From NCBI RefSeq assembly GCF_022690685.1, contig NZ_JALCYY010000045.1, positions 1 to 44,374 on the forward strand: a stretch of DNA of 44,374 nucleotides, in the 5' to 3' direction. The notes beneath the pieces are model-generated. The model was not told the origin of the DNA. It did no database searches and saw only the letters and a program-made list of their open reading frames with translations. The translations under genes were made by a program, and so were the position numbers. How positions within the stretch are numbered: the first letter of the stretch is position 1; each line of letters opens with the position of its first letter. The DNA comes from Anaeromyxobacter terrae (GTDB taxonomy: Bacteria > Myxococcota > Myxococcia > Myxococcales > Anaeromyxobacteraceae). Below, piece after piece: positions 33,901 through 35,763 of the stretch.

Positions 33901-33969
33901 GATGCTCTTCCAGCGGCGCGTCTCGAGCGCCGTCTTCTGACCGTAGATGGGAAGCCCTAGCGATGGCAT
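30946..33969 (-). CDS. actB: Alternative complex III subunit ActB, Mo-oxidoreductase-like/Fe-S fusion
   Basis: The 1007-residue product fuses a molybdopterin-oxidoreductase-like part (about 80-740) with a ferredoxin-like part (about 750-960). A twin-arginine signal (Arg50-Arg51, [17 protein letters not shown]) indicates Tat export. The Fe-S half has [11 protein letters not shown] from residue 784, [25 protein letters not shown] and later CTYC and CAQAC. The third motif has Thr where the second Cys is usual, consistent with the single 3Fe-4S centre reported for this complex. Known homologues lack the molybdenum cofactor. It carries electrons from quinol to ActA. The start at 33969 overlaps the actA stop by 13 bases. 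Confidence 0.95.
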
Positions 33970-34607
33970 GTGTAGCAGCTCGTGCGGGGTTTCACGTCGT
34001 ACTTCTTCGCCAGCTCTTTCCCGAGCGCGACGGGGTCGCCTTCCGGCTGCCACGTCATGTTCGTGATCTCCTCGAGCGGGCGGAGACGCGGGGTGGGGTT
34101 CCGGTGACAGTCGAGGCACCAGCCCATCGTGAGCGGGGCGACCTGCTCGATCGCCGGCATCAGATCGACGCGTCCGTGGCACTCGACGCAGCCGACCCCC
34201 TTGTTCACGTGGATGGCGTGGTTGAAGTAGACGAAGCCGGGGAGGCGGTGCACCCGCACCCACTCGATCGGCTTGTTCGCGAACCAGCTCGCGCGCACGA
34301 GGTCGAGCAGCGGGCTCTTGTTCCACACCTGCGAGTGGCAGTTGAGGCAGAGCTCGGTGGGCGGGATCCCCGCGCTGGCGGCCTTGTCGACGGTCGTGTG
34401 GCAGTAGCGACAGTCGATGAGGTCGTCCTGCACGTGGTGCCGGTGGTCGAACTGGACCGGCTGCCCGATCTGCTCCGCCTGCCCGGTGCCCGCCGGGATG
34501 CGGGCGAACACCATCAAGGCGCCCACCGTCCCGGCGGCGCCGGCGACGAGGACCGCGATGACGATGCGGAAGATGCCGTTGGATCTCGGAGAAAAGAGTG
34601 CGCTCAT
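33957..34607 (-). CDS. actA: Alternative complex III subunit ActA, pentaheme cytochrome c
   Basis: The 216-residue product has one N-terminal transmembrane helix (about 13-34) and five heme c motifs: CRYCH (66-70), CLNCH (87-91), CVECH (140-144), CLDCH (164-168) and CYTCH (211-215). Scattered His residues (HRHH at 55-58, His130, His133) supply sixth ligands. It is the heme-wire subunit that takes electrons from ActB to ActE. It is the first gene of the twelve-gene cluster; its ribosome site is weak. The divergent ECF sigma gene starts 292 bases away. Confidence 0.96.
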   Translation of the reverse strand: MSALFSPRSNGIFRIVIAVLVAGAAGTVGALMVFARIPAGTGQAEQIGQPVQFDHRHHVQDDLIDCRYCHTTVDKAASAGIPPTELCLNCHSQVWNKSPLLDLVRASWFANKPIEWVRVHRLPGFVYFNHAIHVNKGVGCVECHGRVDLMPAIEQVAPLTMGWCLDCHRNPTPRLRPLEEITNMTWQPEGDPVALGKELAKKYDVKPRTSCYTCHR

Positions 34608-34666: not shown

Positions 34667-34688
34667 TAAATTGTCTTGGATCAAATAT
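34667..34688. promoter_or_regulatory. AT-rich island in the actA-sigma divergent region
   Basis: The 22 bases from 34667 to 34688 are about 77% A+T, in sharp contrast to the surroundings, and lie 60 bases upstream of actA. On the minus strand they contain TTGATC and ACAATT, but no pair of hexamers has correct spacing, so the precise promoter is not assigned. This is the best candidate for the control region of the act-cox cluster. Confidence 0.4.
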
Positions 34689-34899
34689 CGACGGAAGGTC
34701 TCGGAAGGGGCGAGGGGCTCGGGTTCCTGCCCGGTCGCCGGCCCGCGCGGGATCCTCCGTGCCCGCCGCCGCAGCGGCCGGTCTCCCTCGGACGCGCGGT
34801 CGTCGAGGCCGCGCCGGCTGCGCGAGCCGAGCGGACGCGGGTCGCGGCGGCGACGCGGTGCTTGTTCCATCGACCGCTCCGAGTTACGACCCACCCCTC

Positions 34900-35763
34900 A
34901 TGGACCCCAAGGACACCGAGCTGCTCGACCGCGCCCGCGAGGGCGACCGCCGGGCCCTGGAGGCGCTCCTCTCACGGCATCAACGGAGCGTGTATCGCTT
35001 CGGGCTGAAGATGTGCCGCGACGAGGAGGACGCAAAGGACGTCTTGCAGGAGACCCTCCTTGCGGTCGCACGAAACGTGAAGGACTTCCGCGGCGCGTCC
35101 TCGGTTTCGACGTGGCTCTATACGATCGCCCGGAGCTTCTGCATCAAGAAGCGGCGGCGCTCGAAGTTCGCGCCGGAGCAGGAGGAGTCGCTCGAGGCGC
35201 GCGTCCCGGGCGAGGCGGCGCGCCAGGTGGTCGACCCGTCGCGCCCCCCCGACGACGCGCTCGCGGGCCGGCAGATCGAGGTCGCGCTGGAGCAGGCCAT
35301 CGCCGCGCTCGACCCCATGTACCGCGAGGTCCTCGTGCTCCGCGACGTCGAGGGGCTCAGCGCGCCCGAGGTCGCGGAGATCATGGGCCTCACCGTGGAG
35401 GCGGTGAAGAGCCGGCTGCATCGCGCACGGGTGGCGGTGCGTGAGGCGGTCGCGCCGCTGCTCGGGATCCCCGGCGCCGCCGCCCCGTCAACCGCTGCTG
35501 CCGCAGGCGCGGTCGCCCCTGCGGAGCCCTGCCCGGACATCGTCGAGCTCTTCTCGAAGCACCTCGAGGGCGAGATCAGCGCCACGCTGTGCGCCGACAT
35601 GGAGCGCCACCTCGCCCGCTGCCCCACCTGCGACGCGCGCTGCCAGTCGCTCCAGCGGACGCTCGCGCTGTGCAAGGCCGCGCCGCTCCCGGAGGTCCCG
35701 GCGGCCGTGCAGGCGTCCGTCCGGACGGCGCTGAAGGAGTTCATCTCGCTGCGAACGTCGTGA
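34900..35763 (+). CDS. ECF sigma factor fused to a C-terminal zinc-finger anti-sigma domain
   Basis: The 287-residue product has sigma region 2 (about 16-88, with DEEDAKDVLQETLLAV), region 4 (about 130-186, LSAPEVAEIMGLTVEAVKSRLHRAR), an Ala/Pro linker (188-208) and a C-terminal module 211-260 with Cys211, His237, Cys241 and Cys244. The HLARCPTC spacing (H-x3-C-x2-C) is the zinc-binding core of ZAS/zf-HC2 anti-sigma domains, normally a separate protein. Thus sigma and inhibitor appear to share one chain. There is no transmembrane segment, so sensing would be cytoplasmic (redox or zinc). The ATG at 34900 begins directly with family sequence. It is divergent from actA. Confidence 0.88.
   Translation: MDPKDTELLDRAREGDRRALEALLSRHQRSVYRFGLKMCRDEEDAKDVLQETLLAVARNVKDFRGASSVSTWLYTIARSFCIKKRRRSKFAPEQEESLEARVPGEAARQVVDPSRPPDDALAGRQIEVALEQAIAALDPMYREVLVLRDVEGLSAPEVAEIMGLTVEAVKSRLHRARVAVREAVAPLLGIPGAAAPSTAAAAGAVAPAEPCPDIVELFSKHLEGEISATLCADMERHLARCPTCDARCQSLQRTLALCKAAPLPEVPAAVQASVRTALKEFISLRTS

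Follow-up and report, generated by a model that had tools for sequence, protein, structure and literature searches.

The gene considered here lies in a window of 44 374 nt (the whole stretch of DNA analysed) from the genome of a soil bacterium of the genus Anaeromyxobacter, whose nearest named relative is A. soli (92–93% identity). It encodes one chain in which an ECF sigma factor is joined, through an Ala/Pro-rich linker, to a class-I zinc anti-sigma (ZAS) domain. The neighbouring gene, actA, is transcribed in the opposite direction at a distance of 292 bp (Table 1). A preliminary description, made from the sequence alone, had proposed both the single-chain architecture and the divergent orientation; both were confirmed, the former by three Pfam domains scoring above their cutoffs within the 287-aa ORF and by a match to the RsiW profile.

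Table 1. Features of the sigma–ZAS locus, in window coordinates
Feature	Position	Strand	Basis or remark
actA, multihaem cytochrome subunit of alternative complex III	33957..34607	-	divergent neighbour, probably no target
FNR/CRP-like box TTGATCCAAGACAA upstream of actA	34671..34684	.	2 mismatches from TTGAT-N4-ATCAA
Promoter predicted for the sigma gene (sigma70 type; TTGTTC-N16-GTTACGA); leader very short	34862..34889	+	consensus match only
Fused ECF sigma factor–ZAS anti-sigma protein, 287 aa, ATG start	34900..35763	+	orthologues share start region
Sigma region 2, residues 23–89	34966..35166	+	Pfam Sigma70_r2, 58.9 bits, cutoff 24
C39	35014-35016	+	within sigma region 2
C81	35140-35142	+	within sigma region 2
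Sigma region 4, residues 129–178	35284..35433	+	Pfam Sigma70_r4_2, 62.2 bits, cutoff 25.7
Ala/Pro-rich linker, residues about 190–209	35467..35526	+	alignment; length variable; disordered in model
C-terminal class-I anti-sigma (ZAS) domain, residues 211–287	35530..35760	+	zf-HC2 match, RsiW profile match, conservation
C231, extra Cys of ZAS domain	35590-35592	+	conservation
C248, extra Cys of ZAS domain	35641-35643	+	conservation
C258, extra Cys of ZAS domain	35671-35673	+	conservation

Pfam detected regions 2 and 4 and no region 3, the composition characteristic of ECF sigma factors; residues 1–189 match such factors in structure comparison, and the KSRLHRAR helix of region 4 is nearly invariant in the alignment of homologues. 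The zf-HC2 domain spans residues 211–244 (30.8 bits against a Pfam cutoff of 22.2). Its zinc ligands, C211, H237, C241 and C244 in the motif C-x25-H-x3-C-x2-C, are exactly those numbered in the preliminary description. The HX3CX2C signature with an upstream Cys and the anti-sigma homology to RsiW and RsrA characterize the domain as class-I ZAS. Compared with solved structures, a profile built from 28 sequences of the C-terminal domain matched RsiW (E = 1.2e-8), RslA (0.001) and, weakly, RsrA (0.02); by sequence profile, the domain is clearly an anti-sigma homologue. Structure models built from five sequences were too weak for judging whether the domain touches regions 2 and 4 (mean pLDDT 63 for the full length and 64 for the domain alone), with pLDDT below 50 for linker residues 190–209. 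The low-confidence model of the ZAS domain has four helices, of which only helix 4 follows the zinc finger. A fold search with this model placed RsiW first (Z 4.5, 59 residues, rmsd 6.2), a result too weak when taken alone. Sequence inspection found no hydrophobic stretch of membrane length after the zinc finger, and the chain ends at residue 287, in keeping with the earlier proposal that the fused ZAS domain is soluble and acts in cis; a thiol or zinc switch is likely.

Several known systems share parts of this design. RsiW of the Bacillus SigW–RsiW pair, which among solved structures comes closest to the C-terminal domain, is membrane bound and proteolysed and its zinc is structural, whereas the window protein is soluble and fused. 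SigR–RsrA of Streptomyces and RpoE–ChrR of Rhodobacter likewise combine a soluble ZAS domain, HX3CX2C and cytoplasmic thiol or redox control; however, each consists of two separate proteins, and the regulons concern disulfide stress or singlet oxygen. The actinobacterial groups ECF48, ECF52 and ECF53 also have sigma factor and zinc anti-sigma domain in one chain, but are equipped with transmembrane helices and an external sensor; in the window protein no transmembrane helix follows the zinc finger, and the chain ends after the ZAS domain. CorE and CorE2 of Myxococcus (former ECF44) are, similarly, myxobacterial ECF sigma factors with an on-board Cys-rich C-terminal sensor. The CorE types respond to Cu or Cd/Zn and depend on a CXC in the linker between regions 2 and 4, whereas the window protein carries a ZAS homologue and, on inspection, is free of Cys between positions 82 and 210, hence has no CXC in that linker. 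A CorE-like (ECF44/ECF238) copper or cadmium sensor was rejected on this ground.

The closest catalogued counterpart is ECF270 of the Casas-Pastor classification, a group described as being under the control of soluble ZAS proteins, with a fused extension in certain members only; the model of this regulatory extension is A. dehalogenans WP_011419852.1, listed under 'proteolysis' among the extended ECFs (PMC8999054). By that description, ECF270 shares genus and architecture with the window protein, whose ZAS domain is soluble, fused and followed by no membrane segment. Since the window genome appears to hold a single such sigma–ZAS fusion, its product is most likely the orthologue of WP_011419852.1. 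The remark in the preliminary description that the role of a fused zf-HC2 is poorly described was fair, as the literature searched yielded no function, regulon, promoter or description of extra cysteines for ECF270; the architecture, however, had already been listed (PMC8999054).

We aligned 63 homologous proteins (37–93% identity to the window protein) and found C211, C231, H237, C241, C244 and C258 invariant, while C248 is present in 60 of the 63. Two cysteines of sigma region 2, C39 and C81, also occur in all 63. Thus, five cysteines passed over in the preliminary description (C231, C248 and C258; C39 and C81) show the same degree of conservation as the zinc ligands. Seven ECF paralogues from the same genome were checked: all seven lack C39 and one has C81. 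When the 12 zf-HC2 domains of the genome were compared, the C231/C248/C258 set was absent from the other 11; a second, specific Cys set confined to one domain out of 12 indicates that this is not a generic ZAS module. The same set, specific to the family of the window protein, also sets it apart from the SigR–RsrA and RpoE–ChrR pairs.

Of 24 Anaeromyxobacteraceae genomes, 22 have the fused form, among them all 16 of good quality; across the phylum, full-length matches of about 260–290 aa occur in about 95 of 195 Myxococcota genomes. Such wide conservation argues that the fusion is no chance event. A second sigma plus ZAS family (loci L206–L208, about 35% identity) has both parts in one frame across a single stop codon; this arrangement may offer a view of how sigma–ZAS fusions arise.

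From the position of the gene opposite actA, the preliminary description had suggested that the aerobic act–cox chain is under redox or zinc control. In 13 loci, that of the window included, the sigma gene does lie next to actA in divergent orientation, but these loci form one clade. In nine other genomes of the family the sigma gene is located elsewhere, while actA persists at another place in all but the incomplete genomes, and in the rest of the phylum the sigma gene has no common neighbour of respiratory type. The GAATCC/CTCTCA motif characterized below, which points to sulfur genes, is absent from the actA–sigma intergenic region in all 13 loci, even at three mismatches; actA was on this basis rejected as a target of the sigma factor. 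Instead, seven of the 13 intergenic regions have a TTGAT-N4-ATCAA-like box upstream of actA (in the same place in loci L009 and L010, with one mismatch in L015 and L018–L020), suggesting an FNR/CRP-type regulator as the likelier and simpler control of the alternative complex III operon. Control of the act–cox chain by the fused protein is, in our estimate, very improbable. The fused gene forms two clades within the one family (L009–L020 and L047–L055), some genera holding both; relocation, paralogue loss and transfer are candidate explanations of this pattern.

The putative promoter of the sigma gene itself is of sigma70 type. In 13 of 13 actA-linked loci and in six of eight other loci of the family, a TTG...TA arrangement is present; it begins at −36 to −43 and stops immediately short of the start codon. 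The conservation of this promoter suggests constitutive expression of the sigma gene and post-translational control of its product. Autoregulation within Anaeromyxobacteraceae was considered and rejected: the motif is missing upstream of the sigma gene and the TTG...TA promoter is conserved instead.

Comparison of upstream regions revealed a shared element, GAATCC followed after 16–17 bases by CTCTCA, facing divergent sulfur operons. The spacing is promoter-like, as expected between the −35 and −10 elements of an ECF promoter. Outside Anaeromyxobacteraceae the motif adjoins the sigma gene in divergent orientation, directed towards genes for persulfide dioxygenase, YeeE/YedE, rhodanese or DUF302 proteins; recurrent neighbours of the sigma gene encode MBL-fold persulfide dioxygenase, paired YeeE/YedE transporters, OsmC, DUF302 and DsrE-like proteins and thioredoxin. 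We searched 195 Myxococcota genomes with the strict pattern GAATCCN{14,15}GGCTCTCA, using the reversed pattern as a control, and obtained 108 matches against one for the control (three exact matches and none, respectively, in the window's own genome).

Of the 95 genomes that have the fused gene, 53 contain the motif, compared with 12 of the 100 that lack the gene (Fisher p = 5.6e-11, related genomes being treated as independent). Within a single family (f6) the figures were 39 of 52 and seven of 44 (p = 4.9e-9, again with genomes that are not independent). The strict motif is absent from 42 of the 95 genomes with the fused gene, several Anaeromyxobacteraceae included. That the fused sigma factor reads this motif is something we infer, and infer strongly, from sequence comparison. 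Another sigma factor or activator could read it, the fused protein doing something else; this possibility draws on the 12 motif-bearing genomes without the fused form, on the about 20 ECF-like matches in the window genome and on the indirect nature of the deduced recognition. We regard it as decidedly unlikely, given that the motif often lies within about 140 bp of the fused gene or of a truncated homologue, that co-occurrence holds within one family, and that at least some of the 12 exceptions are incomplete genomes or carry a truncated homologue beside the motif.

To describe the predicted regulon, CTCACA and CTCCCA variants were also admitted, giving 128 sites, of which 121 had a usable downstream gene, usually starting 5–90 bp on. 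The genes were assigned by similarity to representatives from the same set, and the names were checked with Pfam and NCBIfam. Among the 121 were 26 genes for rhodanese, 20 for MBL dioxygenase, 18 for YeeE/YedE, eight for OsmC, six for FmdB zinc ribbons, four for thioredoxin and four for methyltransferases; a few sites precede genes for SQR, SorA-like sulfite dehydrogenase, CoA-disulfide reductase, TauE, DUF302 or DUF6132 proteins. Recognised sulfur or thiol families account for about 85 of the 121 sites (about 70%). Sites away from the sigma gene, found by the genome-wide search only, behaved in the same way: for 85 of 104 such sites the downstream gene fell into a family of the regulon. In the window genome, the exact-match targets are OsmC, an FmdB zinc ribbon and a secreted protein of unknown function, and a rhodanese follows a site with one mismatch. 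Relatives have retained the sites in front of OsmC and FmdB. The osmC promoter reads GAATCC-N16-CTCACA.

The secreted protein, of 292 residues, lies behind an exact motif (L104, 1501–1528) and has no Pfam or NCBIfam match; it is a candidate new sulfur-stress protein. Genes of FmdB type recur behind the motif across the family (L106, L121, L126, L133, L137 and L141), which suggests a role of the FmdB family in sulfur or zinc–thiol stress; to our knowledge FmdB is no established sulfur gene. A radical-SAM (SPASM-like) gene also recurs (L110 and L171). The FmdB, methyltransferase and radical-SAM targets have no obvious link to sulfur and count against a sulfur regulon.

The inducer might be thiol stress in general (disulfide, zinc or soft-metal load), with the sulfur genes as one branch of the response. 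ZAS domains of the RsrA type answer thiol oxidants, and thioredoxin, OsmC, methyltransferases and FmdB zinc ribbons are among the predicted targets. Moreover, myxobacterial CorE2 answers Cd and Zn (PMC8999054). Against this, rhodanese, persulfide dioxygenase and YeeE/YedE, the largest classes, together with SQR and sulfite dehydrogenase make up, as annotated from sequence, a sulfide oxidation and sulfane-sulfur pathway and not a disulfide-stress or metal-efflux set. We consider general thiol stress unlikely as the inducer.

Truncated homologues of about 185–220 aa, without a ZAS domain, were observed in several Myxococcaceae-like genomes (L191–L204). They keep C39 and C81, and most adjoin a GAATCC/CTCTCA-type motif; a pattern search detected no separate ZAS gene near them. 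Expression of the regulon thus seems possible in the absence of the fused domain, and sensing may take place outside it, so that C39/C81 or another input may matter; this is the chief caveat to the mechanism proposed below.

Accordingly, the sigma factor might control the sulfur regulon while its fused domain is activating or purely structural, or while C39 and C81 are the sensing cysteines. The truncated homologues beside the same motif favour such a reading, as do the zinc-independent binding of RsiW to its sigma factor (PMC7406223), the ability of C-terminal extensions to activate (PMC8999054) and the need of CorE for its Cys-rich domain. The domain is, however, clearly an anti-sigma homologue, and its cysteines beyond the zinc ligands, kept in 60–63 of 63 homologues, fit a sensor better than a spacer. 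On balance we find this alternative rather unlikely.

Our preferred reading, which we consider probable, is that the gene encodes a single-chain soluble ECF sigma factor which is equipped with its own Cys-rich zinc anti-sigma domain and governs a regulon for detoxification of sulfide and sulfane sulfur (persulfide). Computation established the architecture, the conservation of the cysteines, the motif with the genes that follow it, and its co-occurrence with the fused gene; all evidence is of this computational kind. The gene would be expressed from a promoter of housekeeping type. In the resting state the C-terminal domain, loaded with zinc, would fold back on regions 2 and 4 and keep the sigma factor off RNA polymerase; rising reactive sulfur species would attack the zinc thiolates and C231, C248 and C258, possibly with C39 and C81. 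The C-terminal domain would then open, and the holoenzyme would transcribe from GAATCC-N16/17-CTCTCA promoters the genes for rhodaneses, MBL-fold persulfide dioxygenases, YeeE/YedE transporters, OsmC and SQR and, in the window genome, for OsmC, the FmdB zinc ribbon, the secreted protein and (at the one-mismatch site) the rhodanese. Inhibition in cis by the fused ZAS domain is suggested, with moderate confidence, by homology. Sulfane sulfur as the signal is proposed, likewise with moderate confidence, from the regulon and by analogy with precedents such as PerR, CstR, SqrR, BigR and FisR.

PerR senses sulfane sulfur at a zinc–cysteine site, and CstR, BigR, SqrR and FisR sense it via paired Cys (PMC9952342). 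These regulators serve the same kind of target genes with a paired or zinc-bound Cys as sensor (PMC9952342), but they are repressors or a sigma54 activator, whereas the window protein is an ECF sigma factor. In the literature searched, we found no ECF sigma factor assigned to control of persulfide or sulfane sulfur. While the fused architecture has been catalogued, the predicted regulon and the Cys set are new, and the signal is probably new. A broader generalization can be offered more tentatively, at somewhat less than even confidence: the fused ZAS domain with its seven Cys/His ligands may be a direct reactive-sulfur sensor throughout a Myxococcota-wide class, acting as a one-component switch for sulfane-sulfur homeostasis.

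The motif is specific enough for use in annotation across Myxococcota. Culturable myxobacteria offer both fused homologues and naturally truncated ones that share one predicted promoter, which makes inhibition in cis directly testable. If the proposed reading is true, a function and a promoter sequence would be provided for an ECF group that is already catalogued but for which neither was found, and a sigma factor with a built-in sensor would represent a new way to run the sulfane-sulfur response.
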